Shown here piece by piece: positions 16,942 through 34,442 of a stretch of DNA of 64,000 nucleotides. The notes under the pieces were generated by a model. That model did not search any database and was not told the DNA's origin. It saw only the letters and a list, made by a program, of their open reading frames with translations. Source of the stretch: Streptomyces canus. Its GTDB lineage: Bacteria; Actinomycetota; Actinomycetes; Streptomycetales; Streptomycetaceae. The stretch covers positions 4,464,001-4,528,000 of the forward strand of contig NZ_CP107989.1 of assembly GCF_041435015.1 (NCBI RefSeq), in the 5' to 3' direction. The position numbers were made by a program, and so were the translations under genes. Within the stretch, counting starts at the first letter, position 1. Each line of letters begins with the position of its first letter.

Positions 16942-16946
16942 GGGGA

Positions 16947-19073: not shown

Positions 19074-20734
19074 GACGCCAGCCCCTCGGCGAGCGGACCC
19101 AGCGCGAGCGCCGGGAAGTAGGTCAGACCGGTGATGATCAGGATCGCGCCCACCAGCAGGCCGGTGAACAGCGGCTTCTCAGTGCGGAGTGTGCCCGCGG
19201 TCGCCGGCACCGGCTTCTGCTCGGCGAGCGAACCGGCCAGCGCCAGCACGAACACCATCGGCAGGAACCGGCCCAGCACCATGGCCAGCCCCAGCGTGCT
19301 GTTGAACCACTGCGTGTCCGCGTTCAGACCGGCGAAGGCCGAACCGTTGTTGTTCCCGGCGGAGGTATAGGCGTAAAGGATCTCGGAGAATCCGTGCGCA
19401 CCGCTGTTGGTCATCGAGTGGCCCGGAGTGGGCAGGGCCATCGCCGCGGCGGTGAAGACGAGCACCAGCGCCGGGGTGATGAGGATGTAGCAGGCCGCGA
19501 ACTTGATCTCACGGGTGCCGATCTTCTTGCCCAGGTACTCGGGCGTACGGCCGACCATCAGACCGGCGATGAACACCGCGATGATGGCCATGACCAGCAT
19601 GCCGTAGAGACCGGAGCCCGTACCGCCGGGCGCGATCTCCCCCAGCTGCATGCCCAGCATGGTGATCCCGCCGCCGAGACCGGTGAACGAGGAGTGGAAC
19701 GAGTCCACCGCTCCGGTCGAGGTGAGCGTGGTCGAGACGGCGAAGATCGACGAGGCACCGACGCCAATGCGGGTCTCCTTGCCCTCCATCGCTCCCCCGG
19801 CGATCTGGAGCGCCGGACCGTGGTGCGCGAACTCGGTCCACATCATCAGCGCGATGAATCCGACCCAGATGGTGGCCATGGTGGCGAGGATCGCGTAGCC
19901 CTGCTTGATGGAGCCGACCATGATGCCGAAGGTGCGGGTCAGCGCAAACGGGATGACCAGCAGCAGGAAGATCTCGAAGAGATTCGTGAACGGCGTCGGG
20001 TTCTCGAAGGGGTGGGAGGAGTTGGCGTTGAAGTAACCGCCGCCATTGGTGCCTACCTCCTTGATGGCCTCCTGCGAGGCGACCGCACCGCCGTTCCACT
20101 GCTGGTGGCCGCCCATGAACTGGCCGACCTCATGGATGCCGGAAAAGTTCTGGATGGCACCGCAGGCGACCAGCACGATCGCGGCGACGATGGAGAGCGG
20201 CAGCAGGATGCGGGTCACACCGCGCACCAGGTCCGCCCAGAAGTTGCCGAGTTCACCGGTGCGGGAGCGGGCGAACCCGCGCACCAGCGCCACCGCGACC
20301 GCGATACCGACGGCCGCCGAGACGAAGTTCTGCACCGCCAGTCCCGCCGTCTGCACGACGTGGCCCATGGCCTGCTCGCCGTAGTACGACTGCCAGTTGG
20401 TGTTCGTGACGAAGGACGCGGCCGTGTTGAACGCCTGGTCCGGGTCGATCGCCTTGAAGCCGAGCGAACCGGGCAGGTGGCCCTGGAGCCGCTGGAGCAG
20501 GTAGAGGAAGACGACGCTCACGGCCGAGAAGGCGAGGACGCCGCGCAGGTAGGCCGGCCAGCGCATCTCGGTGTTCGGGTTGGCACCGATGCCCTTGTAG
20601 ATCCACTTCTCGACGCGCCAGTGCTTGTCGGAGGAGTAGACCTTGGCCATGTAGGTGCCGAGGGGGACGTAGGCGAGAGCCAGCGCCGCTATGAGCGCGA
20701 GCAGCTGGAGCACGCCGGCGAGTACGGGACCCAT
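19070..20734 (-). CDS. kdpA: KdpA, K+-binding and translocating subunit
   Basis: A 554-aa membrane protein of the superfamily of K+ transporters that forms the selectivity filter of the Kdp pump. The repeated P-loop-like segments include [20 protein letters not shown] and [18 protein letters not shown], followed by [18 protein letters not shown], all characteristic. Roughly ten membrane segments can be seen. It follows kdpF by 7 bp. Confidence 0.97.
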
Positions 20735-20741
20735 GACGATC

Positions 20742-20831
20742 TCAGAACCTCTCCGGGAAGATCAGGGCGAGGACGAGATAGCCCAGCAGGGCGACGGCCA
20801 CGATCAGGCCGACGACGTTTTCGACGGTCAC
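20742..20831 (-). CDS. kdpF: KdpF, small stabilising subunit
   Basis: A 29-aa protein, [20 protein letters not shown] then LALIFPERF: a single hydrophobic helix with the terminal PERF typical of KdpF. In E. coli KdpF stabilises the KdpABC complex in the membrane. It starts with GTG at 20831, and that GTG overlaps the stop of a further microprotein gene upstream (GTGA, 20828-20831). Confidence 0.92.
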
Positions 20832-20952: not shown

Positions 20953-21036
20953 GAGGTAACCGCTTCTGTGGCCGGATTCGGCCGCCGTTGACGCCTCTCT
21001 TACGGCGGCCCCGGCACCTTTGACGGGACTCTGACG
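20953..21036 (-). promoter_or_regulatory. kdp promoter with two pairs of 11-bp direct repeats (proposed KdpE sites)
   Basis: In the kdp direction: CGTCAG-N5-CGTCAA (21036 to 21020), 15 bp, CGTAAG-N5-CGTCAA (21004 to 20988), 29 bp, then TACCTC (20958-20953) as the candidate -10. The microprotein ATG is at 20911. The hexamer starts fall at 0, 11, 32 and 43 bp, the same geometry as at four other promoters in this locus. The -10 match is the weakest of the set. Confidence 0.7.
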
Positions 21037-21052
21037 CCGCCGGAGGCGAGGG

Positions 21053-22894
21053 TCACAGCAACCGGAAGCGCAGTCGGCAGATGACCGCGTCGGTCTCCCT
21101 GCGCACGGCGTGGGCGACGACGGCGCCGCGCTGGTTCTGCAGCAGCCGCTGCCACAGCCGCTCCGGCTCGGTCTCCGGGATCAGCACGGTGACCTGGGTG
21201 GCCGGTTCCGACGTGGCGACCTCGCGCACGTACGCGGCGATGGGACGGCCCAGGCTGCGGCTCTCGCAGGTCAGCCGGACCAGCGGAACCCCAGGGCCCC
21301 ACTCCGCCCAGGAGCGCTCCAGAGCGTGCAGCTGGGCCCTGTCCTCGGGGTCGGGGTAGCAGACGGTGACCGCGCGTACCTCGTCGCCCAGGGAGGCCGC
21401 CGCGGTCAGCGCCTCGGACGTCAGGCGGGAGAGGGAGGACACGGGGACGATCACCAGCGACCGCTCGCGATGAGGAGTCTCGGGGATACTGCCCAGGCCC
21501 AGGCGCTCCCCGATGCGGGCGTAGGCGCGGTGCACGGCGACGAAGGCCGCCACCAACAGCGGCAGGGTCACCACCACCAGCCAGGCCCCCTCCTCGAACT
21601 TGCTCGCCGTGACGACGATCGAGGAAATCCCGGTCAGTAGCGCGCCGAAGCCGTTCAGCAGGGCCTTGCCCCGCCAGCCCCGACCTCGCTCCTGACGCCA
21701 GTGCCGCACCATGCCGACCTGGGCGATGGTGAAGCCGACGAAGACCCCGATCGCGAACAGCGGCACGAGGGTGTTGGTGTCGCCGCCGGAGAACACCAGC
21801 AGTGCCGCCGAGACCACGGCCAGGGCGAGCACACCGTGCCGGTGCACCTGGCGGTCGGCCTTGAGCGCGAACACGTGGGGCAGGTAATTGTCACGCGCCA
21901 GGAGCTTCAGCAGGACCGGCAGCCCGCCGAACGACGTGTTCGCGGACAGGGCCAGCAGGATCACCGTGGCGAACTGGATGATGTAGAAAGCCCAGTTGTG
22001 GCCGAGGGAGGCGTCGGCGAGCTGGGCGAGGACGGTGACGCCCTCGACCGGCTGGAGGTGGAAGCGGGAGATCAGTACCGACAGTCCGATGAGCATCAGG
22101 CCGAGGACGGCGCCGAGGGCGACCTCCGCGTGCTGGGCGCGCTTGGCGCGCGGGACGCGGAAGGAGGGGACGGCATTGGCGATGGCCTCGACGCCGGTCA
22201 GGGCGCTGCACCCGGAGGCGAAAGCTTTCAGCAGGAGCAGGGCGCCCACGGTGGTGGCGTTGTCGGCCAGCACCGAGGCGTGCCCGTCCGCCGTGGCCGT
22301 ACTGACGGGGGCGGACCGGAACAGCCCGACGCCGATCAGCACGAAGATCGAGCCCACGAACACCACGGTCGGCACGATGAACACCTTCGCCGACTCGACG
22401 ATGCCCCGCAGGTTGACCGCCGTGATCAGCGCCAGCACGGCCAGACACAGCCATAGCCGGTCGTCGTAGAGGGCCGGGAAGGCCGAGGTCAGCGCGGCCA
22501 CTCCGGCCGTGACGGCGACGGCGACGTTCAGGACGTAGTCCAGGACCAGCGAAGCGGCCGCGACCAGGCTCGTCCGCGCGCCAAGATGGGTCTTGGCGAC
22601 GGCGTACGACCCGCCGCCGTCCGGGAAGGCGGCGATCACCTGCCGGTACGAGGCGACCAGCACCGCCAGCAGACCCGCGATCGCCAGGGTCACCGGGAGG
22701 GTGAACCCGAGGCCGTGGGCGCCGGCTGCGGCCAGCACGAGGACGATCGCCTCGGGGCCGTAGGCCACGGACGCCATCGCGTCGAGGGAGAGTGCGGCAA
22801 GACCTGTGACGGCGGTCAGCCGGTGGCGCTCGCCGGTATCGGGCGGCTCCTCGTCGGCGGGGGTCGCGCCCGGCTCGATGGTCACGACGGACAT
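21053..22894 (-). CDS. KimA-like APC-superfamily potassium permease
   Basis: A 613-aa permease with about 12 membrane segments and a soluble C-terminal domain of about 150 residues (RSLVIVPVSSLSRLTSEALT onward) with a USP-like pattern. The N-terminus GLAALSLDAMASVAYGPEAI and the segment VASYRQVIAAFPDGGGSYAV resemble KimA (YdaO), the K+/H+ symporter controlled by c-di-AMP in Bacillus, more than amino-acid carriers. Start 22894 follows AAGGAG. Placement beside kdp and a shared promoter design strengthen a K+ role, but substrate is inferred; 'amino acid permease' is the default alternative. Confidence 0.75.
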   Translation of the reverse strand: MSVVTIEPGATPADEEPPDTGERHRLTAVTGLAALSLDAMASVAYGPEAIVLVLAAAGAHGLGFTLPVTLAIAGLLAVLVASYRQVIAAFPDGGGSYAVAKTHLGARTSLVAAASLVLDYVLNVAVAVTAGVAALTSAFPALYDDRLWLCLAVLALITAVNLRGIVESAKVFIVPTVVFVGSIFVLIGVGLFRSAPVSTATADGHASVLADNATTVGALLLLKAFASGCSALTGVEAIANAVPSFRVPRAKRAQHAEVALGAVLGLMLIGLSVLISRFHLQPVEGVTVLAQLADASLGHNWAFYIIQFATVILLALSANTSFGGLPVLLKLLARDNYLPHVFALKADRQVHRHGVLALAVVSAALLVFSGGDTNTLVPLFAIGVFVGFTIAQVGMVRHWRQERGRGWRGKALLNGFGALLTGISSIVVTASKFEEGAWLVVVTLPLLVAAFVAVHRAYARIGERLGLGSIPETPHRERSLVIVPVSSLSRLTSEALTAAASLGDEVRAVTVCYPDPEDRAQLHALERSWAEWGPGVPLVRLTCESRSLGRPIAAYVREVATSEPATQVTVLIPETEPERLWQRLLQNQRGAVVAHAVRRETDAVICRLRFRLL

Positions 22895-22954
22895 GAGTGC
22901 GTGCTCCTTCTTCCCTCGGCCGCGCACGAGGGCTGTGGTGTGCGCGGTGCACTC

Positions 22955-23038
22955 AGGGTGTGTGCGTTTCCAGCCGGGACCGACCGCTCCTTGCGGTTTC
23001 TTCGCGCCGAACGGGCCGACTTTGACGGGTCCTTGACG
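22955..23038 (-). promoter_or_regulatory. Promoter of the KimA-like gene with 11-bp direct repeats (proposed KdpE sites)
   Basis: In the gene direction: CGTCAA-N5-CGTCAA (23038 to 23022), 15 bp, a degenerate pair CGCGAA-N5-CGCAAG (23006 to 22990), 29 bp, then CACCCT (22960-22955) as candidate -10. Spacing matches the kdp promoter exactly although the proximal pair is degenerate. Confidence 0.6.
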
Positions 23039-23076
23039 GCGATGTGACCCAGGTGACAGAGCCGTGAGGACAAGGC

Positions 23077-23128
23077 CGTCAGAGTGGCGTCAAAAGGGAG
23101 GCGATCCGGCCATGCGGATACCTACGGT
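23077..23128 (+). promoter_or_regulatory. Promoter of the two-TM gene at 23135 with one 11-bp repeat pair
   Basis: CGTCAG (23077-23082), AGTGG, CGTCAA (23088-23093), then 29 bp and TACGGT (23123-23128) as -10. Only six bases separate the -10 from the ATG at 23135, which implies a leaderless transcript. The upstream second pair seen at other sites is not recognisable here. Confidence 0.65.
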
Positions 23129-23134
23129 CGGCGC

Positions 23135-23665
23135 ATGGCACCCCGCAACGACGCGCGCGGCCCCGCGGACGCGGCGCACGACCTCCGCTGGGCGCGCGAC
23201 GTGCGGGACTCGGTGCGCTGCGCCGGCGTGTTGCTCGCCCTGGCCCTCCTCCTCGACTGGGGCACGGACCGGCTGTCGCTCTGGCGCGGCGCCCTGTGGG
23301 TCGCCTCGGCGCTGCTCCTCTTCCTCGTGCTGTGTCCCGCCCACGTCCGGGCCGGTGAGGACTGGTTGTCCGTGCGCCGGCTGCTGCGCGAGCGGCGGGT
23401 CCGTACGGATCTGCTGGTGTCCATCCGCTGCCTTGACGGCGTCTCCCAACGGCTCGTGCTGCGGGACGCGTTCGGCGGGCGGGTGGAGATCGACCCCGAA
23501 GTCCTGGTGAGGAACTCGCCGTTGTGGTTTCGTCTGGAGGCGGGCGCCCGGAAGGCGGCGGCCGGTGGCACGCTGCTGTGCGGAGCGACCGCCTTGCGCC
23601 GCCTCTCCTTGCGCGTCGACCGCGAGGCCGCCCAGGCCGTCTTCAAGGTTTCCGGGCTGGAGTGA
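23135..23665 (+). CDS. Two-TM protein with PH-like cytoplasmic domain (paralogue of 33924)
   Basis: A 176-aa protein: charged N-terminus, two adjacent helices (VRCAGVLLALALLLDWGTD and ALWVASALLLFLVLCPA), then a beta-rich domain with RTDLLVSIRCLDGVSQRLVL and GGRVEIDPEVLVRNSPLW. It is clearly homologous to the protein at 33924-34442 through RTDxLVxxR, GVSxxLVLRD and GGRxExDPxVL. The start at 23135 sits six bases after a candidate -10, so translation is probably leaderless. It is divergent from the KimA-like permease and shares its regulatory repeats, so an accessory or regulatory role in K+ transport is inferred. Confidence 0.72.
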   Translation: MAPRNDARGPADAAHDLRWARDVRDSVRCAGVLLALALLLDWGTDRLSLWRGALWVASALLLFLVLCPAHVRAGEDWLSVRRLLRERRVRTDLLVSIRCLDGVSQRLVLRDAFGGRVEIDPEVLVRNSPLWFRLEAGARKAAAGGTLLCGATALRRLSLRVDREAAQAVFKVSGLE

Positions 23666-23698
23666 CGCCCTCGGGGCGCCTCCTCTGGAGCCGTCCCT

Positions 23699-26218
23699 TC
23701 AGGCACCGCCTACGTTGCGCGCACCTCGCGGGTGGTGCGGGCCGGTCGGGGAGGGCACCGGGTCCGTCTGCTCGGCGAAGGGCAGTGACACGACCATGGT
23801 CAGGCCGCCGCCTGGGGTGTCCTCGGGGGTGAGGGTCCCGTCCATCGCCTCGGTCAGGCCCCGGGCGAGGGCCAGCCCGAGGCCGAGTCCGGTGGTGTTG
23901 TCGGTGTCGCCGAACCGTTGGAAGGGCTCGAAGAGGCGATCGCGGCCGGTCGGCGGGAGGCCGGGACCGCGGTCCACGACACGCAGTTCGACCCGGCCCG
24001 CGAGGGCGCTGGCGGTGACCAGCACCTTCTGCCCCGGAGAAGTGTGGCGGGCGGCGTTACCGACCAGGTTGGCGACGACGCGCTCCAGCAGCGGCGGGTC
24101 AGCCAGCACGGCCGGGACCTCCTCCATGTCCCGCACCTCGGCCCCTGGCACATCGGCCAGCGCCATCGGGAGTACCTCCTCCAGGGTCGTGGCCCGCAGG
24201 TTCAGCGTGAGGACACCGGCTTCCAGGCGGCTGAGGTCGAGGAGGTTCTCCACGAGGCCGTTCAGCTTGGCCATGGACTCGTCGGCGGTGGCCAGGAGTT
24301 CGTCGCGGTCCTGGGGCGAGAACTCCACATCGCGACTGCGCAGCGAGGTCACGGCCGCCCATCCGGCGGCGAGCGGGGTGCGCAGGTCGTGTCCGACGGC
24401 CCGCAACAGTGCCGTACGCATCCGGTCGGCGGCCTTCACCGGCTCGGCCTCGGCCGCCGCCTCGGCCAGCCGAGCCCGCTCCACGGCCGACCCCACGTGC
24501 GCGGCGAACGCGGCCAGCACCCGCCGCTCGGAGGAGGACAGTGTGCGTCCACGCAGCGCCAGCCACGCCTCCGGCCCTGCGGGCACGACCGTGGTGTCCT
24601 CGGCGTCGGGCGGCTCGTCGACGAGTTCCGCGGTCTCCATGCCGAAGGTCTCCCGCGTGCGTTCCAGCAGTGCCGGGATCGTCGCTCCGCCCCGCACGAT
24701 GCTGCCGGCCAGCGACGACATGGTCTCCGCCTCGGCGGTGGCTCGGGCCGAGCGGCGGGACAGACGCAGGGAGCGGTCGACGACGGCGGCCACGGTGGCG
24801 GCCACCGTCGCGAACACCCCGAGCGCGAGCAGCGCGTTGGGGTCCTCGAGCGTGAACGAGCCGATGGGCGGGATGAACCAGTAGTTCAGCAGCAGGGACG
24901 CCGTCACCGACGCGATCAGCGCCGACAGGACCCCTCCTATGCAGGCCACGCCGACCACCGTGAGCAAGAACAGCAGCGCCTCGCTGGTCAGGTTGACCGT
25001 CCCGCGTACCTGGGCGAGGACGACCGTGAGCAGCACCGGCAGCACCAGCCCGGCAACCGGCCCCGCGATCTGCCGGGCCGTGGACAGGGTGCGGCGCCGG
25101 GACGGCAGCAGGGTGCCGCGGCCGGCGCGCTCGTGGGTGACCCGGTGGACGTCGATGTCGCCCGACAGCGCGGTCACGGTCTCTCCCGTGCCCGGGCCGG
25201 TCAGGAAGCGTTCCAGTCGGCCCCGGCGGCTCGTGCCGAGGACCAGCTGAGTGGCGTTCTCGGCGCGGGCGAACTCCACCAGGGCGGTGGCGATGTCGTC
25301 GCCGACGACGGAGTGGTAGCTGCCGCCGAGGTCCTCCACCAGCCTGCGCTGGCGGGCCAGCGAGGCGTGGGAGACCCCGGCGGCGAGTCCGTCGCTGCGT
25401 GCCACGTGCACGGCGAGCAGATCGCCGCCGGCCGACCGGGCGGCGATCCGGGCGGCCCGCCGGACCAGCGTGTCGCCCTCCGGCCCGCCGGTCAGCGCGA
25501 CGACGACCCGTTCCCGCGTCTCCCACACACCGCCGATGCCGTGCTGGGAGCGATAGTCCTGGAGGGCCTCGTCGACCCGGTCGGCCACCCACAGCAGCGC
25601 GAGCTGGCGCAGTGCGGTGAGGTTGCCGGGCCGGAAGTAGTTGGCGAGCGCAGCGTCGACCTTGTCGGGGGCGTAGATGTTGCCGTGCGCCATGCGGCGG
25701 CGCAGCCCCTCGGGCGGCATGTCCACCAGCTCCACCTGGTGCGCGCGCCGGACGACGTCGTCGGGCACCGTCTCGTGCTGCGGCACGTGCGTGATCTTCT
25801 CGACCACGTCGTTGAGGGACTCAAGGTGCTGGATGTTCAGCGCCGTGACGACGTCGACGCCGGCGGCGAGCAGCGCCTCGATGTCCTGCCAGCGCTTGGG
25901 GTTGCGGCCGTCACCGGGGACGTTGCTGTGCGCGAACTCGTCGACGATCGCCACCTGCGGGCGACGCGCGAGGACCGCGGCGAGGTCCATCTCCTCGAAC
26001 CGCCCGCCACGGTACGAACAGCGGGCTCGCGGGACGACCTCCAGGCCGTCGAGCATCTCTTCCGTGCGGGGTCGGCCGTGGCACTCGGCGAAGCCGACCA
26101 CCACATCCGCACCACGGGCGGCACGGCGCCGCCCCTCGTCCAGCATCCGGTAGGTCTTGCCCACCCCCGGGGCCGCCCCGAGGTAGACCTTCAGCCGTCC
26201 AGGCCGTACGTCACTCAT
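23699..26218 (-). CDS. Orphan KdpD-like sensor histidine kinase
   Basis: An 839-aa kinase with the same domain order as KdpD: Walker A GAAPGVGKT (14-22), VDEFAHSNVPGDGRNPKRWQ, a USP module (ALTGGPEGDTLVRRAARIAA), four membrane helices near 400-500, HisKA box AVGHDLRTPLAAGWAAV (His near residue 609) and HATPase with GLGLGLALARGLTEAMDG. No response regulator gene adjoins it. It may phosphorylate KdpE as a second input, or sense and modulate transport through its N-terminal module. It is transcribed from a promoter with the same repeat geometry as kdp. Confidence 0.9.
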   Translation of the reverse strand: MSDVRPGRLKVYLGAAPGVGKTYRMLDEGRRRAARGADVVVGFAECHGRPRTEEMLDGLEVVPRARCSYRGGRFEEMDLAAVLARRPQVAIVDEFAHSNVPGDGRNPKRWQDIEALLAAGVDVVTALNIQHLESLNDVVEKITHVPQHETVPDDVVRRAHQVELVDMPPEGLRRRMAHGNIYAPDKVDAALANYFRPGNLTALRQLALLWVADRVDEALQDYRSQHGIGGVWETRERVVVALTGGPEGDTLVRRAARIAARSAGGDLLAVHVARSDGLAAGVSHASLARQRRLVEDLGGSYHSVVGDDIATALVEFARAENATQLVLGTSRRGRLERFLTGPGTGETVTALSGDIDVHRVTHERAGRGTLLPSRRRTLSTARQIAGPVAGLVLPVLLTVVLAQVRGTVNLTSEALLFLLTVVGVACIGGVLSALIASVTASLLLNYWFIPPIGSFTLEDPNALLALGVFATVAATVAAVVDRSLRLSRRSARATAEAETMSSLAGSIVRGGATIPALLERTRETFGMETAELVDEPPDAEDTTVVPAGPEAWLALRGRTLSSSERRVLAAFAAHVGSAVERARLAEAAAEAEPVKAADRMRTALLRAVGHDLRTPLAAGWAAVTSLRSRDVEFSPQDRDELLATADESMAKLNGLVENLLDLSRLEAGVLTLNLRATTLEEVLPMALADVPGAEVRDMEEVPAVLADPPLLERVVANLVGNAARHTSPGQKVLVTASALAGRVELRVVDRGPGLPPTGRDRLFEPFQRFGDTDNTTGLGLGLALARGLTEAMDGTLTPEDTPGGGLTMVVSLPFAEQTDPVPSPTGPHHPRGARNVGGA

Positions 26219-26288
26219 CGCCGCCGACGCGCTCCGCTCACTGGCTCAACTCCCACGGGAGACGGGTTGCTTCCCCCTACCGATCCCT

Positions 26289-26372
26289 ACCGAAGCGCTT
26301 TCGAGGCTCGGCCGGTGCGGGTGTTAGCGCGTTCTTGGCGCCGATCACGGGGACCTTGACACTGCCTTGACA
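26289..26372 (-). promoter_or_regulatory. Promoter of the orphan kinase with 11-bp direct repeats (proposed KdpE sites)
   Basis: In the kinase direction: TGTCAA-N5-TGTCAA (26372 to 26356), 15 bp, degenerate CGCCAA-N5-CGCTAA (26340 to 26324), 29 bp, then TTCGGT (26294-26289) as candidate -10. The region is shared with the divergent antiporter gene, whose start is at 26463, so the sites could serve both. Confidence 0.6.
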
Positions 26373-26462
26373 TCCCTTGGCCGGATAAGGTGAAGGCGGT
26401 GTGCCGGGAAGTCTGGTCGGCGGGGAGTCAGAGCGGCTCCTTCGTAGTCCCAGGGGGACGGC

Positions 26463-28037
26463 ATGCGCGGCGTCGGCACGGTTCTGGCACTGGTCATCCT
26501 GGCCACCGTCGTGGCGACCTTCGCCCGCCGGTGGCGCATACCCGCGCCCTCCCTGCTCGTCGTCGCGGGCCTGACTGTCGCGCTGCTGCCGGGCACTCCG
26601 CAGATAGAGATCAGCCCGGAGATCATCGGCCTCGTCGTACTGCCACCACTGCTGTACGCCAGTGCGGAGGAACTGTCCTGGCGTGAGCTGCGCGCGGTGT
26701 GGAAGCCGGTCGGGATTCTCGCGATCGGACTGGTGCTGGCCTCGGCGGCGGCCGTCGGCTGGGTGGCCTCGCTGGTAACTCCCCTGTCATGGCAGATGGC
26801 GTTCGTGCTCGGCGCGATCCTGGCCAGCACCGACCCGGTCGCGGTCACGGCCCTGGGCCGACGGCTCGCGCTGCCGCCGAAGGTTCAGATGCTGGTGCAG
26901 GCTGAGAGCCTGTTCAACGACGCGACCTCGCTCGTCCTGTACCGCGTCGCGGTGAGTGTCGCCGTGGCCACCGCGGCGGTCGGCTGGGGCTCGGCAGGCA
27001 GTGAGTTCGTGGTGCTCGCGGGCGGCGGCACGCTCATCGGCGCCGCGGTCGCCGGGGTGGTCGCGCTGATCCGACGGCGCACCGAGGACCCGGTGCTGGA
27101 GACGGTGATCGCCCTGGTCACGCCGTACGCCGCCTATGTCCTCGCGGAGGCGGCACACACCTCCGGGGTCACCTCCGTGGTGGTCGCGGGCGTGGTCCTC
27201 GGCGGCCGCGGCGACCGGCTGACCAACGCCCGCATCCGGCTCCAGCTGCATGCCGTCTACGGCACGGTGGTGTTCCTCTTGGAGAGCGTGGTGTTCTCGC
27301 TCATCGGCCTGGCCCTGCCCGCACAGGTGCAGGCACTGGACGACGGTGACCGGGCCTGGCCGCTGTACGCCCTCGCGGTGGCGGGCACGCTGATCGCGGT
27401 ACGGCTGTTGTGGCTGGCGCCCCTGTCGGCCGTGGTGCAGCGCAAGGGCGGCATCCAGCGGATGAACTGGCGGGTGCCGCTCGTCCTGACCTGGGCGGGC
27501 ACCCGGGGAGTCGTCCCCCTGGCCGCAGCCCTCTCCATCCCCGAGACCACGAAAGCGGGTGCGGCACTGGCGGACCGCCCCCTGGTCCTCGTCCTGACCA
27601 CCTCGGTCGTGGTCGTCACCCTCGTCGTGCAGGGCTTCACCCTCGCCCCGGCCGTGCGCCGCTCCGGCATCGCCCTGGAGCCCGACCACACCGAGCGCGA
27701 GGAGGCCTCCGCCCGCTGTCACCTGGCCGACGCCGGCATCCGCCGCCTCGACGAGCTCTCCGGCCTCGAAGCCGTACCGGACGTCGTCGTCGAACGCCTC
27801 CGGCGGGGGCTCACCGCCCGCCTCGACGACGCCCGCGACCGCCTCGCCGACGACAGCACGACCGCGGCTCCGGCCGGGTCCGCCGACCTCGTCTACCGCC
27901 GGCTGCGCCGCGACCTGATCGCCGTGGAAGCCATGGAACTGCAACGCCTCTACGACGACCACGCCATCAGCGACACGACGCGCAGAAGGCTCCAACGCTC
28001 CCTCGACCTGGAGGAAGCCCGGCTGGCGGACGCCTGA
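26463..28037 (+). CDS. CPA1-family Na+/H+ (or K+/H+) antiporter
   Basis: A 524-aa antiporter of the NhaP/CPA1 type with about 12 membrane segments. The ion-binding motifs are ASTDPVAVTALGRRL near residue 122 and AESLFNDATSLVLYRVAVS near residue 153 (the ND pair), with TWAGTRGVVPLAAALSIP in the C-terminal half. A hydrophilic tail of about 110 residues (REEASARCHLADAGIRRLDEL onward) is typical of actinobacterial members. AGGGGGA precedes the ATG. In this locus a role in Na+/K+ balance and pH is likely; ion specificity is not determined by sequence. Confidence 0.92.
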   Translation: MRGVGTVLALVILATVVATFARRWRIPAPSLLVVAGLTVALLPGTPQIEISPEIIGLVVLPPLLYASAEELSWRELRAVWKPVGILAIGLVLASAAAVGWVASLVTPLSWQMAFVLGAILASTDPVAVTALGRRLALPPKVQMLVQAESLFNDATSLVLYRVAVSVAVATAAVGWGSAGSEFVVLAGGGTLIGAAVAGVVALIRRRTEDPVLETVIALVTPYAAYVLAEAAHTSGVTSVVVAGVVLGGRGDRLTNARIRLQLHAVYGTVVFLLESVVFSLIGLALPAQVQALDDGDRAWPLYALAVAGTLIAVRLLWLAPLSAVVQRKGGIQRMNWRVPLVLTWAGTRGVVPLAAALSIPETTKAGAALADRPLVLVLTTSVVVVTLVVQGFTLAPAVRRSGIALEPDHTEREEASARCHLADAGIRRLDELSGLEAVPDVVVERLRRGLTARLDDARDRLADDSTTAAPAGSADLVYRRLRRDLIAVEAMELQRLYDDHAISDTTRRRLQRSLDLEEARLADA

Positions 28038-28117
28038 GCGGCGCTCGGCGAGGCTCCGCGAACCCCGACGATGCAGGGACTTGGGGCACCTCGCCCTGAC
28101 GACCGCCGTCTGACATC

Positions 28118-28330
28118 TCAACCGATGGCGTTTCGGAGCCGGTCAACGGCTTCCGCCAGATCGTTGAAAGCCTTGTTCTCCTGCTGCCCGGTAGTACGGG
28201 AAGCCGACAAGATGCTGTCGCGACCTCCGCGGATCCGAGCGTAGGCGTCAAAGCGGACGAGGACCTCTTGCACTGGCTCCTGGGACGAGAACTGGGGCAC
28301 GGAGGGCAGATCACTCTGCGGCGACATCAT
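28118..28330 (-). CDS. Small hypothetical protein downstream of the four-TM protein
   Basis: A 70-aa soluble protein (MMSPQSDLPSVPQFSSQEPV ... AFNDLAEAVDRLRNAIG). The C-terminal half is predicted helical and amphipathic. A strong ribosome site (GGAAGGAG) precedes the double ATG, and the start lies 29 bp after the stop of the four-TM gene on the same strand, so it is probably co-transcribed. No family recognised. Confidence 0.6.
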   Translation of the reverse strand: MMSPQSDLPSVPQFSSQEPVQEVLVRFDAYARIRGGRDSILSASRTTGQQENKAFNDLAEAVDRLRNAIG

Positions 28331-28359
28331 CAATCTCCTTCCCTGAGCAGCACAGGAAC

Positions 28360-29934
28360 TCAGCGGAACTCGGCCAGCCGTGGCCGCAGCCCGAGCGCGG
28401 TCAGCAGCATCGCTGCGAGCAGCAGACCGGCCGCCCACGGCAGCAGACCACTCACCGCCGACCGGCCCGCCCGCACGGACGCCGCGAAGTGGGCCTGATT
28501 GATGTCCGTCACCTTGTCCAGTGCGGTCATCCAGGCCCCGAAGTGCGCGTTGGACGTGCCGGGCTCCCAGCCCATGCAGAACTCGGTGGCCTGCCGTTCC
28601 TTCCCCGCCGCCACCAGCGCCCGGATCTTCCGGTCGTCGCGCTGATAGACGGCGTACGTCTCCACCGTCTTCTCGGCTGCCGTTCGCTCCCCGGGGAAGG
28701 TGATGTTGTCCAGCTCGCGCCGGAACTCGCCGGTGAAGCGCAGGTCGTGGTGGTCGGACTCGTACGCCTTCCAGGTGGTGGCGAGCCCGGCGTCGTACGT
28801 GGCTAGGGTCGCGCCCTGGATGCCGTACAGCTTCTGCGACTTGGCTAGGAATGCGCCCGAGTACTGGTCGCGGCGCTGGGGGTCGAGAAGGTAGCGGCTC
28901 TCGTCGGCGTTGGCGTCGTAGGCGACGGCCCGGGCACGGGAGAGCGCGACGACGGAGTCGAAGGCGTCGCGGCGGGCGCCCCGCAGCTGGCCGGAGGTGG
29001 AGATCAGCATCTGCGCGCCGAGGATCACCGCGAGCAAGGCGCAGACGGTGGCGGCCAGGACGCCGGGGTTGAGGATCCGCCGGAAGCGGCGGACCAGGTA
29101 CCACTGCACAATGCCGAGCGTGGTGAGCAGCAGGACCCCGAGTGCGACGACTGCGATGAGCCGGCCGGAGAGCGTCGAGCGGGCGGCGGTGTACCGCGTC
29201 TCGAAGGAGCCGTCGTTGGACGACACCAGCACGCGTGAAGCGGGCAGGAGCCTGCTCTGCAGGAGGTCCGTAGCCCGGCGGTATTCATCGACCGCGGACG
29301 CCTTGCCGCTGCTACGGTCGTCGCTCTCCAGCGCGCGCCCTACGAGTTCCTGGTACTCGGCGAAGTCGTCGGTGAGGGACTCGACCGTCGTCTCGTCGGC
29401 CCGGTCCCCCTGCGCCGCGACGGCCAGCGTTCGCAGGTCATGACCGATCCCGCGCCGCGCGTCGCCGTACAAGCCGACCGCCTTCTCGTACGGCGTCTTC
29501 AAGCGCCCTTTCCCCGCATCCCCATGGGACAGCAGGATGTTGGCGGCCTGCGCGTCCATGTCGTTGAGGGCGAGGTTGAGATCGGCTGCGCTGGTGGTGC
29601 GGGGTGCGTCACGGTCGGCCACGCTGTCCCAGGTGCCGTTCGCGGCAAGCCCGGCGACGAGAAGCAGGACGGCCAGGGCGGCGGTGAGCACAGCCGTGGC
29701 CGCTCGCAGGAGACGCAGCCGCGCGGGCACCGTGGCCCAGAAGCGACGGCGCAGCACGGCCCGCGCGGCCGCGGCCTGCTGTCTCAGGCTCGGCCGCGGC
29801 CCCGGACCGGGATCGCCCGTCCACGCTCTACCTCCTGGCCGTGGTCCGGGGCCGCTCGGCGGCACGACCACCTTTCGCGGTGGCCGTGCGCCACCCTCCT
29901 GAGGTGTCCGCGCTGTGCCGGCCGTGATCGTCAC
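28360..29934 (-). CDS. Four-TM sensor-like membrane protein (GlnX-like topology)
   Basis: A 524-aa protein with a basic, Pro/Gly-rich N-terminus of about 75 residues and two repeated units, each a membrane helix, a helical extracytoplasmic domain of about 150 residues, and a second helix. Helices are visible at TAALAVLLLVAGLAANGTW, IAVVALGVLLLTTLGIVQWY, LAATVCALLAVILGAQMLI and LLPWAAGLLLAAMLLTALGL. The extracytoplasmic parts resemble four-helix-bundle chemoreceptor ligand domains, and the layout recalls GlnX of the mycobacterial GlnH-GlnX-PknG pathway. No kinase or binding protein lies beside it, so this is a topological comparison only. Its promoter carries the proposed KdpE repeats. Confidence 0.65.
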   Translation of the reverse strand: MTITAGTARTPQEGGARPPRKVVVPPSGPGPRPGGRAWTGDPGPGPRPSLRQQAAAARAVLRRRFWATVPARLRLLRAATAVLTAALAVLLLVAGLAANGTWDSVADRDAPRTTSAADLNLALNDMDAQAANILLSHGDAGKGRLKTPYEKAVGLYGDARRGIGHDLRTLAVAAQGDRADETTVESLTDDFAEYQELVGRALESDDRSSGKASAVDEYRRATDLLQSRLLPASRVLVSSNDGSFETRYTAARSTLSGRLIAVVALGVLLLTTLGIVQWYLVRRFRRILNPGVLAATVCALLAVILGAQMLISTSGQLRGARRDAFDSVVALSRARAVAYDANADESRYLLDPQRRDQYSGAFLAKSQKLYGIQGATLATYDAGLATTWKAYESDHHDLRFTGEFRRELDNITFPGERTAAEKTVETYAVYQRDDRKIRALVAAGKERQATEFCMGWEPGTSNAHFGAWMTALDKVTDINQAHFAASVRAGRSAVSGLLPWAAGLLLAAMLLTALGLRPRLAEFR

Positions 29935-29985
29935 GGTCCCTCCCAGGTCCCGCCGCGGACGGTTACCCGTCCCCCGTCGCCGATC

Positions 29986-30069
29986 AGTCTGCGACCGTAT
30001 CCGGCCACCGGCGGCTGGCCTTGATGCCTCCCTGACGGTTCCTCAGGGTTGTTTGACGGGACGTTGACG
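29986..30069 (-). promoter_or_regulatory. Promoter of the four-TM gene with two pairs of 11-bp direct repeats
   Basis: In the gene direction: CGTCAA-N5-CGTCAA (30069 to 30053), 15 bp, CGTCAG-N5-CATCAA (30037 to 30021), 29 bp, then CAGACT (29991-29986) as -10. The gene ATG is at 29934. Hexamer spacing (0, 11, 32, 43) and the 29-bp gap equal those at kdp. Confidence 0.7.
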
Positions 30070-30396
30070 GCACGCAGGCGAGAGCCGTGCGAGTGCCGCA
30101 CATTCCTTGCCGGACCGGTCAGTTACGACGTCGACCACGATCGGTGCTCCACCTGGCGCCAACACAGCGCGAGAGCCACCACGGGCTGACCTCAGCCGTA
30201 GATCCGCGGGGCGGGAACAGGGCGCACCGGCACGTGACGACAGCGTCGGATCAGGATCGTTACGAGACCCGGGTCGAAGAGCCATGCCGGCGAGGTCGAC
30301 CCCTGTAACTGCGCCATCGGCCGACGCCTGTTCGCGCTGCGCCGAGGTGCACGAACCGCGCGTGCCGGCTACGCCGCCGGCATGGGGCGGCGGGCG
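30070..30396. other. Non-coding stretch upstream of the DUF1048 gene end
   Basis: No gene is supported. Short frames on both strands lack ribosome sites and codon bias. It separates the four-TM gene promoter from the 3' end of the PadR/DUF1048 operon. Confidence 0.4.
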
Positions 30397-30723
30397 TCAC
30401 TTCTCGGCCATGCCTGATCCCCCGCTGAGGGATTCCTGGTAGACCTCCGCATAGGTGGGAGAGTCCTTGACCAGGTCGTCGCAGAACACGGCGACGTCGT
30501 TGCCGACGAGTTCCAAGACCCCCTTGCCCGCGGCGACGCCCTCCTCGAAGAAGTCGACGATCCCGGGGAGCAGGGGTCCGTCAGACAGGTCGATCGGTCC
30601 GACCTTGAACAGGTACCTCTGCATCTCCTTGTAGACGATCCGGTAGTCCGGCGGGAGCGCCTTGACCCGGGCCATGTGTGTCCGCCACTGCTTCTTGCCC
30701 TCGATGATGTCTTGGATGCCCAC
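30397..30723 (-). CDS. DUF1048 protein, second copy
   Basis: A 108-aa helical protein: MGIQDIIEGKKQWRTHMARV then ALPPDYRIVYKEMQRYLFK and GVLELVGNDVAVFCDDLV. This is the DUF1048 pattern, sometimes annotated as Dps-like, usually encoded next to PadR regulators. It starts one base after the stop of the first DUF1048 gene. It is paralogous to that gene (ALPxDYR; VLxxDxxxFCxxL). Function unknown. Confidence 0.82.
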   Translation of the reverse strand: MGIQDIIEGKKQWRTHMARVKALPPDYRIVYKEMQRYLFKVGPIDLSDGPLLPGIVDFFEEGVAAGKGVLELVGNDVAVFCDDLVKDSPTYAEVYQESLSGGSGMAEK

Positions 30724-30724
30724 G

Positions 30725-31081
30725 TCAGCCTCCCAGCCGGCTCAATTTCTTTGCGACGTTCCTGTTCAGCTGCTCGCGCCACCGGTCGCGATAGGTTCGA
30801 GCCCCTTCGCCCCCCGCCAGCGCGGTGCAAAAACCTCCGATGTCGTCGCCGAGCACCTCCTGGACACTCTGTCCGTCCACCGCCGCCATTTCGAGCAGCC
30901 CCAGGCCGGCGTCGAGGATCGGCATCAGGTTGCGGCCGGTGAAGTCCCCGTAGGGGAAGAGGTGGGCGACGACCTGCCCCCACGCCGCCCGGTAGTCGTC
31001 CGGCAGGGCCTCGGCTCGGGCTTCGAACGCCTTCCATTCCCTGGTGAGATCGCTGCCTGTGATGGTCTCCCAGAAGGTCAT
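30725..31081 (-). CDS. DUF1048 protein, first copy
   Basis: A 118-aa helical protein with ALPDDYRAAWGQVVAHLFPY and VQEVLGDDIGGFCTALAGG, matching DUF1048. Its ATG overlaps the padR stop by 4 bp, so it is translated with its regulator. Tandem DUF1048 copies behind one PadR suggest they act as a hetero-oligomer, though this is inference. Confidence 0.82.
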   Translation of the reverse strand: MTFWETITGSDLTREWKAFEARAEALPDDYRAAWGQVVAHLFPYGDFTGRNLMPILDAGLGLLEMAAVDGQSVQEVLGDDIGGFCTALAGGEGARTYRDRWREQLNRNVAKKLSRLGG

Positions 31082-31404
31082 CTCCCGCTCTCCTTGAGCC
31101 TGTTAATGCGTGATGAGACGTACTGCCATTTCGCCCAGAACTTCGCGAGTTCTTCGTGTCCGGCTTCGTTGAGCGCGTAGAACTTGCGCGGCGGACCGAC
31201 CCCGGATGGTCGTTTCGTCACCTGGACGAGTCCGTTCCTCTCCAGTCGTAGCAAGATCGTGTACACCGTCCCCTCGATGACGTCGGCGAAGCCGAGCTCG
31301 TTCAGCTGACGGGTGATGGCGTACCCGTAGGTTTCCTCGCTGCCGATGATTTCGAGCACGCATCCTTCGAGCGTGCCCTTCAGCATCTCCGTCAGGTCGT
31401 CCAT
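31078..31404 (-). CDS. PadR-family transcriptional regulator
   Basis: A 108-aa PadR regulator. The winged helix runs through LEGCVLEIIGSEETYGYAIT, ELGFADVIEGTVYTILLRLE and GPPRKFYALNEAGHEELAKF; the GTVYTILLRLERNGL recognition region is diagnostic. It heads a three-gene operon with two DUF1048 genes. An inverted repeat (31423-31444) lies 19 bp upstream of the start and is the likely autoregulatory operator. Confidence 0.92.
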   Translation of the reverse strand: MDDLTEMLKGTLEGCVLEIIGSEETYGYAITRQLNELGFADVIEGTVYTILLRLERNGLVQVTKRPSGVGPPRKFYALNEAGHEELAKFWAKWQYVSSRINRLKESGR

Positions 31405-31422
31405 CGCGATTCCTCCTCAGCC

Positions 31423-31444
31423 CTCGGTACTGCGTGCTACCGAG
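31423..31444 (-). promoter_or_regulatory. Candidate PadR operator
   Basis: Perfect 7-bp inverted repeat CTCGGTA-N8-TACCGAG. A second, smaller one, TACCG-N5-CGGTA, follows at about 31445-31459. Together they make a tandem operator immediately upstream of padR. Confidence 0.6.
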
Positions 31445-31459
31445 TACCGCTACACGGTA

Positions 31460-31852
31460 TCACCGAGTAGCGGAGGAGTCGCAGTATCCCGGGCGGGCGC
31501 GGACCTCGGACCGATCCACGAGGAGCCAGGCCCCGCAGCGGCGGCCACCCCATCGGCCCGGATCCGTCATGGGCGGGGGCTGCGCGACCACGAGGGTCGG
31601 CGTACGAGATGACGCTGGGTGCACGCCCCTGATCCCGGAACCATCCCCCGTACGGCCCAACCCGTTCCCATGCGCCCGAAACGTCCCTACTTGATGTGCC
31701 CGCGGACGCTTCCGTGGTCGGTCTTAACGCAAGCTTGACGCCGTCGCATGCCCCATCCGTGGGCCCCTGCGTCACGCTCTGCATACGCTGGTGCCGCCGT
31801 CCGCGTGATGGCCGGAACCCGACGCCGAGCCGCACATCAGGAGAGCAAGCCG
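31460..31852. other. Intergenic region between padR and the APC permease
   Basis: No gene is supported. A single 11-bp repeat pair, TTAACG-N5-TTGACG (31724-31740), matches the proposed KdpE hexamers but points away from the permease. TACGCT at 31784-31789 is a possible permease -10. Confidence 0.45.
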
Positions 31853-33808
31853 ATGGCCACCACCGAGCACCCGCCGTCGAGCCGTCTGCGGACATGGATG
31901 CTTCAGGGCCTGTCCGACATGGGCAAGCAGGGCGGCCACACGGGACCGCACGCCCAGCCGGAGCCCCCGCACAAGGGCCAGCGCTGGTGGCGCGTGATGT
32001 GTCTGACCGGTGTGGACTATTTCTCCACCCTCGGCTACCAGCCGGGCATCGCGGCCCTGGCGGCCGGTCTGCTGTCGCCGGTCGCGACCATCGTGCTCGT
32101 GATAGTCACCCTGGCCGGCGTCCTGCCGGTCTACCGACGCGTCGCCGAGGAGAGCCCGCACGGCGAGGGCTCGATCGCGATGCTGGAGCGGCTGTTGACC
32201 TTCTGGAAGGGCAAGCTGTTCGTCCTGACCCTGCTGGGCTTCGCCGCCACCGACTTCCTGATCACCATCACGCTCTCGGCGGCGGACGCCTCGACCCACC
32301 TGGTCGAGAACCCGCATCTGACCAGCACTCTGCACGACAAGCAGATGCTGATCACCCTGATCCTCGTGGCTCTGCTCGGCGCGGTGTTCCTCAAGGGCTT
32401 CCTGGAGGCCATCGGCGTCGCGGTCGCCCTGGTGGCCGTCTACCTCACGTTGAACATCGTGGTGGTCATCGTCGGCGTGTGGCACGTCGCCACCGCCGGC
32501 CACGTGATCACCGACTGGTCCAGCGCGCTGACCGCCGAGCACGGCAACGTCTTCGCCATGGTCGGCGTGGCGCTCCTGGTCTTCCCCAAGCTCGCGCTCG
32601 GCCTGTCCGGCTTCGAGACCGGCGTCGCCGTCATGCCGCACGTGCAGGGAGATGAGGGCGACACGGAGGAGGACCCCCGGGGCCGTATCCGCGACACGAA
32701 GAAGCTGCTGACGGCCGCCGCTCTCATCATGAGCGTCTTCCTGATCACCACCAGCTTCATCACGACACTGCTGATCCCGGAGAAGGAGTTCGAGTCCGGC
32801 GGCCAGGCCAACGGACGCGCCCTCGCCTACCTGGCCCATGAATACCTGGGCGGCGCCTTCGGCACGGTCTACGACGTCTCGACGATCGCGATCCTGTGGT
32901 TCGCGGGCGCCTCGGCGATGGCCGGCCTGCTGAACCTGATGCCGCGCTATCTGCCCCGCTACGGCATGGCCCCGCACTGGGCACGGGCCGTCCGCCCGAT
33001 GGTCATCGTGTTCACGCTCGTCGGCTTCCTCGTCACGTGGATCTTCGACGCGGACGTGGACGCGCAGGGTGGCGCGTACGCCACTGGCGTGCTCGTCCTG
33101 ATGTCCTCCGCCGCGATCGCCGTGACCATCGCCGCCCGCCGCGCCCAGCAGCGGGGCTGGACCATCGGCTTCGCCGTCGTCTCGGCGGTCCTGCTCTACG
33201 TCACCGTCGCGAACGTCGTCGAACGCCCCGACGGCGTCAAGATCGGCGCCTGCTTCATCGCCGGCATCATCCTCATCTCCCTGCTCTCCCGCCTGGCCCG
33301 TGCCTTCGAGCTCCGCGTCACCAGTGTCACGCTGGACGACATGGCGGAACGATTCGTCCGAGACATGGCCAGTCGCAAGATGCGCTTCATCGCCAACGAG
33401 CCGGACCAGCGCGACAAGGCCGAGTACCGCGACAAGATCGAGCAGATACGGGCCGACAACGACATGCCGGAGCAGGAGGACTTCGTCTTCGTCGAGGTGA
33501 CGGTGACGGACCCCTCCGAGTTCGAGGCGAGCCTGACCGTACGCGGCGAGGTCCTCCACAACCGCTACCGCGTGCTCACTCTGGAGTCCTCCTCCGTCCC
33601 CAACGCCCTCGCCGCGCTGCTCCTCCACGTCCGTGATTCGACGAACTGCACCCCGCACATGTACTTCGAGTGGACCGAGGGCAGCCCTTTCGCCAACTTC
33701 CTGCGGTTCTTCCTCTTCGGCCAGGGCGAGGTCGCCCCGGTCACCCGAGAGGTCCTGCGCGAGGCGGAACCGGACCGCGCCCGCCGCCCACGCGTCCACA
33801 CCGGCTGA
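31853..33808 (+). CDS. APC-superfamily permease, second potassium-locus copy
   Basis: A 651-aa permease with a long cytoplasmic N-terminus, [20 protein letters not shown] at the first helix, about 12 membrane segments, and a soluble C-terminal domain from about residue 500 ([39 protein letters not shown] at the end). The architecture (12 TM plus soluble tail) parallels the KimA-like protein at 21053-22894, but sequence similarity is low. The ATG at 31853 follows CAGGAG. Substrate unknown; K+ or an amino acid are both possible. The next gene encodes a paralogue of the small two-TM protein found beside the KimA-like gene. Confidence 0.8.
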
Positions 33809-33832
33809 ATCACCGGCTGGACACGACGCCAG

Positions 33833-33916
33833 CGTCAGGAGCCCGTCAGGATTCACCCGCACGGCGTCAGGACCCCGTCAGGGACCGCCGCCAGGACCCG
33901 CACAGCCGCATAGCGT
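33833..33916 (+). promoter_or_regulatory. Best example of the repeat promoter: upstream of the two-TM gene at 33924
   Basis: CGTCAG at 33833, 33844, 33865 and 33876 (offsets 0, 11, 32, 43; four identical hexamers), 29 bp, then -10 TAGCGT (33911-33916) and the ATG at 33924 after seven bases, so the mRNA is probably leaderless. A short palindrome, CATAGCG-N4-CGCTATG, spans the -10 and the start codon (33909-33926). Confidence 0.8.
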
Positions 33917-33923
33917 CAGCGCT

Positions 33924-34442
33924 ATGACACGGATGGACCGGCGGGTCCTGGCCGGTGACCGCCACTGGCGGGGCAGCGCCCGACTGGCGGCGATCTGCGC
34001 CCTGCTGTTCTGCGCCCTCTCCCTGCTCGTGGACTGGGACGCCGGCACCCTGACGCTCCTGCGAGCTCTGCTGTGGCTGACCTTGTCCGCCACCGTCTTC
34101 GCCGTCCTGCTCCCGCCCCAGGTGACGGCGGGCCCCGGATGGCTGGAGGTACGCACACCCTGGCGCAGGCGCATCGTGCGTACCGACGCGCTGGTGGCCG
34201 TACGGCAGTACAGCGGCGTGTCAGCACACCTGGTCCTGCGCGACACCCACGGCGGGCGCCTGGAACTCGACCCCCGCGTCCTCGCCGCCAACCCCCTGAT
34301 CTGGCACGAGCTCGACACCGGCGTCCACCGATCCGTCGACCGCGGCACGCTCCTCCAGGGCACGGACGTCCTGGGACAGCTCGGTCACCGGATCGACGAC
34401 GAGACCGCGCGAGCGGTTCTGAGGACCTCCGGACTCTCCTGA
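33924..34442 (+). CDS. Two-TM protein with PH-like domain (paralogue of 23135)
   Basis: A 172-aa protein with two hydrophobic helices (LAAICALLFCALSLLVDWD and LLWLTLSATVFAVLLPPQ), followed by a beta-rich domain containing IVRTDALVAVRQYSGVSAHL and GGRLELDPRVLAANPLIWHE. It is homologous over its length to the protein at 23135-23665. Translation probably starts at the first base of the transcript. It follows the APC permease by 115 bp, but with its own strong repeat promoter. No family function is known to me; an accessory role for the adjacent transporter is the working guess. Confidence 0.72.
   Translation: MTRMDRRVLAGDRHWRGSARLAAICALLFCALSLLVDWDAGTLTLLRALLWLTLSATVFAVLLPPQVTAGPGWLEVRTPWRRRIVRTDALVAVRQYSGVSAHLVLRDTHGGRLELDPRVLAANPLIWHELDTGVHRSVDRGTLLQGTDVLGQLGHRIDDETARAVLRTSGLS

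Follow-up and report, generated by a model that had tools for sequence, protein, structure and literature searches.

Introduction

Operators of the response regulator KdpE have been described in Escherichia coli and Mycobacterium smegmatis. The E. coli operator is reported to consist of two 6-bp direct repeats placed 5 bp apart, with one DNA-binding domain on each half-site, and R193, R200, and T215 are named for its DNA binding (PMC3264566). In M. smegmatis, where KdpE is reported to regulate kdp positively, a minimal site of 22 bp, CCGTAAAGAAACCATCAAGGCC, was mapped by footprinting and electrophoretic mobility shift assay and was described as rich in A and not noticeably similar to other KdpE motifs (PMC5401905). 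Here, we analyze a 64-kb stretch of the Streptomyces canus genome (the window), the minus strand of which carries kdpF-A-B-C followed by kdpE and kdpD and in which six promoters, including that of kdp, share direct repeats of the form CGTCAn-N5-CGTCAn. Judged from sequence comparison, these pairs are very probably KdpE operators of a potassium-starvation regulon. In the accessible text of the openly licensed literature, we found neither an operator nor a regulon of KdpE described for Streptomyces; the system is of a known kind, and its operator layout and larger target list are new.

Like the sites in the window, the M. smegmatis operator is a hexamer pair with a 5-bp spacer upstream of kdp, but it is one 22-bp site with kdp as its target, whereas in the S. 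canus genome two pairs are set 32 bp apart and more than one target is predicted. The E. coli operator has the same 6+5+6 layout but is a single pair of AT-rich half-sites (TTTATA/TTTACA). PHO boxes, to which the OmpR/PhoB-family regulators PhoB and PhoP bind head to tail, are 11-nt direct repeats as in the window arrays, and the PHO operators of Streptomyces coelicolor vary in number and organization. They differ from the arrays in their core, GTTCACC in S. coelicolor, and the two pairs seen here keep a fixed gap (offsets 0/11/32/43).

The window also encodes a 613-aa protein that is a clear homolog of Bacillus subtilis KimA, the expression and activity of which are controlled by cyclic di-AMP (c-di-AMP), according to a title cited in PMC10117811; here a KdpE-like array precedes the gene. 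A c-di-AMP riboswitch is reported to control kdpFABC in Bacillus thuringiensis (PMC6488665). That such a riboswitch mainly controls the potassium response at this locus, with the repeats incidental, is scarcely credible, as a search of window positions 11000-36500 on both strands gave no Rfam match to the ydaO-type riboswitch at E ≤ 0.5, its sole row being an sR44 snoRNA far below threshold.

Hexamer Arrays in the Window and the Genome

The original prediction placed the hexamers at the promoters of kdp, the KimA-type gene, the paralogous genes TM2a and TM2b for proteins with two transmembrane segments (2-TM), the orphan KdpD-type kinase gene kdpD2, and a GlnX-like gene, and all six sites proved to be positioned and oriented as proposed (Table 1), the kinase site reading TGTCAA-N5-TGTCAA. 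Two pairs at offsets 0, 11, 32, and 43 were confirmed at the five promoters for which they were claimed, as was a degenerate proximal pair at the KimA and kdpD2 sites. A seventh site had been overlooked, a reverse-oriented pair upstream of the gene for a 651-aa transporter. This pair is conserved in 22 of 25 sequences (the window and 24 loci); in 21 of these 22, TACGCT lies at a distance of 43 bp, and in the remaining one at 44 bp.

Both the comparison with shuffled sequence and the count elsewhere in the genome favored the prediction. Six exact CGTCA-N6-CGTCA pairs occur in the window (one each at kdp, KimA, TM2a, and the GlnX-like gene, two in the TM2b array, and none at kdpD2), against a mean of 0.32 and a largest value of 2 in 100 dinucleotide shuffles. 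The genome contains 41 such pairs, against 12 for a control pattern read backward, and six of the 41 fall in 12,964 of its 10,677,318 bases (binomial P ~1.4e-11, a post hoc figure). A 48-bp four-box pattern with at most three mismatches was found at six places genome-wide and its control at none; TM2b (no mismatch) matches it best, followed by kdp and the GlnX-like gene (one mismatch each), and another of the six is a second kdp locus at 8.50 Mb.

The genome was also scanned with a sequence-only profile built from sites upstream of kdpA in other genomes, for which 43 of 50 listed references were used (L164, L167, L169, L172, L192, L194, and L200 were left out). One reference, L031, is closely related to the window. 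Two others, L056 and L108, are by sequence the reverse 651-aa transporter site and not a kdp array, and because they are in the training set, the rank of the reverse site is not independent. Of 15,224 first-look candidates, 150 were scored, giving 63 rows at E ≤ 10, so that absences are weak evidence. In agreement with the prediction, the top seven rows are all at potassium or kdp-locus genes: kdp (E 1.9e-11), TM2b (2.3e-6), the GlnX-like gene (6.4e-5), two rows at a kdp remnant near 8.50 Mb, position 2,906,160 upstream of a second kdpDE pair (0.0085), and KimA (0.0103). The reverse site ranked tenth (0.299) and TM2a 14th (0.342). Individual sites were scored with a matrix of 22 window hexamers; scores within the window are circular, and the loci of other genomes are the actual test. 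Score thresholds (7.3, 15, 16, 18, and 20) were chosen in the course of the work.

Conservation of the Arrays in Streptomyces and Other Actinomycetes

Conservation was examined in the best 80 of 568 kdp loci, which belong to genomes named Streptomyces or, in two cases, Actinobacteria bacterium. Some of these loci are two copies from one genome (L034/L051 and L054/L065), and related genomes are non-independent observations. A four-box array lies within 500 bp of kdpA in all 80 loci, at least 64 of the arrays starting 301-312 bp upstream; at five of the 80, the antisense strand is above threshold too. When spacings were left free, 32 bp between pairs won in 76 and 11 bp between hexamers in 67 of the 80 kdp promoters, and each won in 21/21 KimA promoters, whereas neither was preferred in the stretches before kdpB and kdpC. 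For kdpD2 (up to 45 loci), the 32-bp distance won 17 times and the 11-bp distance 25 times. The array itself is present at KimA in all 21 relatives examined, at the GlnX-like gene in both relatives examined, and at kdpD2, above threshold, in 19 of 45 (antisense in one). Sites with a four-box score of at least 18 number 191 in the 1.66 Mb of these loci, 162 of them upstream of tracked genes and 29 elsewhere.

The profile was then applied to 26 Streptomyces genomes including this one, 150 candidates being scored in each. KdpA is found in 20 of the 26 (21 genes), and each of the 21 kdpA genes has a profile hit ~290-610 bp upstream on the same strand, the weakest with an E value of 0.0025 (G266). 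Four of the six genomes without KdpA gave no hit at E ≤ 0.03 among the candidates scored. KdpD was found in 25 of the 26 genomes. Among 25 hit places chosen from these scans (20 stretches), four are at kdp, five at TM2 genes (three with the 651-aa transporter behind), and one each at kdpD, a KdpB homolog, KimA (539 bp away), a protein that matches the membrane region of KdpD, and the reverse transporter site; five are at SAV_915-type genes, one is at a universal-stress-like protein (recognized by eye), and five have no evident link.

To cover the class, 118 genomes were sampled, of which 62 have KdpA; one locus was taken from each of 56 of the latter, 49 of them outside Streptomyces. A four-box score of at least 18 was reached by 31 of these 49 kdp loci in the sense orientation and by one in antisense, against a shuffle expectation of 0.000 (mononucleotide). 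With free spacing, 32 bp won in 29/49 and 11 bp in 24/49; the next spacing was 21 bp (14 loci), which is the distance between the inner boxes.

It is very improbable that the similarity of the arrays was merely inherited, promoters having been duplicated along with their genes (TM2a/TM2b and the kdp remnant) and not selected for a common regulator. TM2a and TM2b are indeed paralogous, and the likeness between the 8.50-Mb site and the kdp promoter extends past the boxes, but the products of kdp, KimA, the GlnX-like gene, kdpD2, and TM2 belong to different families, and the inter-box spacers vary while hexamers and register are kept.

Probable Identity of the Regulator

The regulator encoded with kdpFABC and kdpD in the window matched 6lgq best among solved structures (E 1.2e-64; named only DNA-binding response regulator), followed by the KdpE structures 4kny and 4kfc, and KdpE is thus its closest named kind. 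The three residues named for E. coli KdpE are identical in the window protein (in the alignment printed for 6lgq; the numbering fits by our own count). The NCBIfam label NF007820 (KdpE equivalog) was dropped: it was the best listed family, but the score was 240 bits against a cut-off of 325, and because of this shortfall we call the regulator KdpE-type.

Read as hexamers, the footprinted M. smegmatis site is CGTAAA-GAAAC-CATCAA, the same 6+5+6 repeat, and none of 50,000 shuffles (mononucleotide, either strand) reached its score on the window-hexamer matrix. In the three genomes in which a close match to the 22-mer was found, it precedes kdpF, and by our own count a further CGTTAA or CGTAAA hexamer lies upstream, at 21 bp in two loci and at 22 bp in one. 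These loci may therefore also have a distal pair, outside the mapped site. Thus re-read, the M. smegmatis site would have the normal 6+5+6 direct-repeat layout, and a second pair may lie upstream of it.

Another OmpR/PhoB-family regulator, such as PhoP, MtrA, or AfsQ1, might bind the arrays. Direct repeats of 11 bp are general for the family, and the PHO box likewise consists of two 11-nt direct repeats (PMC4415409). We nevertheless consider this improbable, since the M. smegmatis KdpE site matches the array motif and the motif goes with the kdp and kdpDE genes from genome to genome, whereas PhoP, MtrA, and AfsQ1 are core regulators in Streptomyces. The PHO-box (PhoP) identity was itself compared by eye and rejected: the box cores read CGTCA(A/G), unlike the S. 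coelicolor PHO core.

The original prediction named KdpE as the only such regulator seen in the window and proposed a compact regulon; in the genome as a whole, KdpE is not the sole candidate, and the regulon is not compact. A second complete kdpD-kdpE operon lies at ~2.90-2.91 Mb (L236 3832-7190), away from kdpFABC, its kdpD 86% and its kdpE 75% identical to those of the window. This operon carries its own upstream pair, CGTCAG-N5-CGTCAA. The remnant near 8.50 Mb (L237 8109-8664) likewise bears a kdp-type array, followed directly by a truncated kdpC and adjoined by a divergent gene for a 651-aa-type transporter. The second operon was followed in 21 loci chosen from the scanned genomes, in 20 of which the kdpD is best matched by the second kdpD of this genome. 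A pair lies within 400 bp upstream of this second-type kdpD in 18 of the 21 loci, and a hit to the KdpE paralog lies beside it in 20. Three of the five examined genomes without kdpA (G284, G016, and G279) keep the pair, and in these the motif therefore stays with kdpDE in the absence of the pump.

These data raise the possibility, which we regard as the less likely one, that the arrays are bound mainly by the KdpE paralog or by both KdpEs. This would be a variant of the KdpE-regulon reading and not exclusive of it, the wiring alone being different. The pair upstream of the paralogous kdpDE, kept in 18/21 loci of that type including three genomes without kdpFABC, speaks for it, as does the DNA-binding helix TNYLRVYMAQLRRKLE, which is identical in the window KdpE and the paralog. 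Against it, the window KdpE is encoded inside the cluster that it would control, and a kdpE hit is found within the locus in 62 of the 80 fetched kdp loci, with identities down to 31%, some of these being other regulators.

Promoter Register

A TANNNT element exactly 29 bp past the proximal hexamer had been claimed for all six promoters. Taken strictly, it is present in two, TM2a (TACGGT) and TM2b (TAGCGT); the other four have TACCTC, CACCCT, TTCGGT, and CAGACT at that distance, with at most two of the three fixed letters each. What holds across relatives is a register of ~27-30 bp. In a set of 269 distinct four-box sites from outside the window, 39 occurrences of TANCGT were counted at 15-59 bp past the proximal hexamer, and all but one of these (38) fall at 27-30 bp. 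GTTTCC, the element conserved in the kdp promoters of Streptomyces, was counted 55 times, with 49 occurrences at 27-28 bp; most of the 269 sites have one or neither of these elements. In second-type kdpD promoters, a TTYGYC element lies at 29-30 bp in 13 of 19 pairs. Because the distances of TANCGT, GTTTCC, TTYGYC, and the reverse-site TACGCT are near fixed, the register between putative operator and start is real, and the -10-like letters vary by gene. The TM2a and TM2b genes look leaderless, their -10-like element ending 6-7 nt before the ATG.

Proposed Mechanism and Probable Extent of the Regulon

The interpretation of the pairs as operators of a KdpE regulon, which agrees with the original prediction, is supported by the conservation of the array at kdp promoters, the match to the M. 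smegmatis KdpE site, and the top seven rows of the genome scan. Under potassium shortage, KdpD, and possibly also KdpD2, would phosphorylate KdpE. Each pair would bind one head-to-tail KdpE dimer with half-sites 11 bp apart, and two dimers, spaced by 32 bp or about three turns of the helix, would occupy the same side of the DNA immediately before the -35 region, from which they would recruit RNA polymerase to a poor -10-like element ~28-30 bp beyond the last hexamer. The sequences themselves show the motif, its statistics, its conservation, and the genes that it accompanies, and binding of KdpE and activation of kdp are reported for M. smegmatis. For Streptomyces, we infer that KdpE binds, that two dimers occupy an array, that phosphorylation and activation take place, and which of the two KdpEs acts. 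The predicted targets are kdpF, KimA, TM2a, TM2b, the GlnX-like sensor gene, probably kdpD2, and the kdp remnant; the second kdpDE operon would be a target through autoregulation or cross-regulation, and the APC-like transporter gene would have a reverse-oriented operator. At KimA and kdpD2, the distal pair is the stronger and the proximal pair the weaker, and the single-pair promoters (TM2a and second kdpD) may be weaker or differently tuned.

Several observations weigh against this reading. The support for KdpE in Streptomyces is drawn from sequence comparison, and the predicted targets are not independent because several share ancestry or neighborhood. Two of the six genomic places of the four-box pattern are unexplained. 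In the profile scan, rows 8 and 9 fall within reading frames of unrelated genes, rows 11 and 12 have no evident potassium link, and the kdpD2 site is absent at E ≤ 10 among the 150 candidates scored; that site reaches 9.1 bits when the window is scanned, and its support in this genome is weak. Arrays at TM2 genes are about equally frequent in sense and antisense (18 and 19, and 18 and 18, of 28), which is expected because the genes diverge. As for the genomes lacking kdpA, a strong four-box hit in G016 (4.4e-6; L274 3959-4007) has no evident potassium gene downstream, G275, which lacks KdpD as well, has two weak hits, and the pair at second-type kdpD is missing from two of the five examined (G262 and G283). 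Outside Streptomyces, 18 of the 49 kdp promoters are below threshold. The M. smegmatis 22-mer, with at most two mismatches, occurs in only three of 148 genomes of one genus, which we take to be Mycobacterium, and is exact in none. The recognition helix of E. coli KdpE is very similar, yet its half-sites are AT-rich. A 2023 review, quoting unpublished data, states that KdpDE of Streptomyces venezuelae is dispensable for development and for growth with 0.5 M NaCl or KCl, a result that does not bear on potassium shortage.

Taken jointly, the following claims have in our estimate an even chance of all being right. A KdpE operator of four half-sites, rigidly spaced at 0/11/32/43 and kept in register with the transcription start, would be class-wide in the Actinomycetes, and the Streptomyces regulon would extend beyond the pump to two transporters (one with its operator reversed), a new two-helix PH-like family accompanying KimA-type importers, a GlnX-like sensor possibly linking potassium to Ser/Thr-kinase signaling, the regulator's own operon, and, in some species, SAV_915/lysA. 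GlnX is reported to control the protein kinase PknG in Corynebacterium glutamicum (PMC9769921), and a kinase link for the GlnX-like window protein is speculation by analogy. The analysis provides a probable KdpE operator, a promoter design that is rigid, and a few readily testable targets, and two unstudied families (TM2 and the small peptide before kdpF described below) gain a possible role in potassium supply.

Gene Content of the Locus

The window KdpA is up to 97% identical to KdpA of Streptomyces sp. NRRL B-24085 and S. canus. Farther upstream of the kdp genes lie the KimA homolog, the divergent TM2a, kdpD2, a Na+/H+ exchanger, the GlnX-like protein, the 651-aa APC-like transporter, and TM2b. 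The 613-aa protein aligns to solved KimA over residues 21-604 of 613, a near full-length homology. The GlnX-like protein scores 240.8 bits with NF058618 (GlnX family), for which the cut-off is 250. Pfam and NCBIfam searches with TM2a gave no match at E ≤ 0.001; a structure model of TM2b (mean predicted local distance difference test score 85.1) shows two helices and six strands, with further helices after them, and its structural matches are PH-like but weak. In 32 of 38 cases, a TM2 gene has a KimA-like gene or that of the 651-aa transporter no more than 1.5 kb away.

Table 1. Genes and operator-like arrays of the kdp region (window coordinates)
Feature	Position	Strand	Evidence or sequence elements
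kdpF, kdpA, kdpB, kdpC together	16273..20831	-	KdpA: profile match
kdpF	20742-20831	-	assigned by eye
kdpA	19070-20734	-	
kdpB	16947-19073	-	
kdpC	16273-16941	-	
kdpE, OmpR/PhoB-family response regulator	15456..16139	-	Pfam Response_reg and Trans_reg_C; solved KdpE 4kny, E 3.5e-64
kdpD, sensor kinase	12907..15459	-	Pfam KdpD, Usp, DUF4118, HisKA, HATPase_c
KimA-type K+ importer, 613 aa	21053..22894	-	solved KimA 6s3k, E 1.7e-121
TM2a, 2-TM protein	23135..23665	+	
kdpD2, KdpD-type kinase without adjacent response regulator (orphan)	23699..26218	-	
GlnX-family-like signal-transduction membrane protein (4-TM gene)	28360..29934	-	NCBIfam NF058618
APC-like transporter, 651 aa	31853..33808	+	25% identity to KimA, 428 aligned columns
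TM2b, 2-TM paralog of TM2a	33924..34442	+	two helices, then PH-like beta domain in structure model
kdp four-box array	20988..21036	-	CGTCAG/CGTCAA/CGTAAG/CGTCAA, offsets 0/11/32/43; -10-like TACCTC at 20953-20958
KimA array	22990..23038	-	strong distal CGTCAA/CGTCAA, degenerate proximal CGCGAA/CGCAAG
TM2a single pair	23077..23128	+	CGTCAG/CGTCAA, 29 bp, TACGGT; ATG at 23135
kdpD2 array, weakest member	26324..26372	-	TGTCAA/TGTCAA/CGCCAA/CGCTAA
GlnX-like gene four-box array	30021..30069	-	CGTCAA/CGTCAA/CGTCAG/CATCAA
TM2b perfect four-box array	33833..33916	+	CGTCAG x4, 29 bp, TAGCGT; ATG at 33924
Reverse pair upstream of 651-aa transporter	31724..31789	+	TTAACG-N5-TTGACG, 43 bp, TACGCT

A 27-codon open reading frame (ORF; window 20828-20911, minus strand) precedes and overlaps kdpF. 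By a loose criterion, a small hydrophobic ORF is present besides the kdpF-like ORF at 112 of 136 Streptomyces and other Actinomycetes loci, and many of these are visibly alike; the 27-codon ORF may be an unrecognized kdp micropeptide. The M. smegmatis paper describes a 120-bp 5′-untranslated region at the corresponding place (PMC5401905).

The SAV_915-type genes behind four-box arrays belong to five other Streptomyces genomes (L269, L270, L275, L277, and L278), and in L269, L275, and L277 lysA, a gene of diaminopimelate and lysine metabolism, lies behind the SAV_915-type gene, one gene of each kind having been checked. L273 contains an array similar to those at SAV_915-type genes, but its annotation showed no gene of this type. 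Tandem CGTCAGGGGTGC-like units are found at L283 3984-4092, upstream of the universal-stress-like protein labeled by eye.

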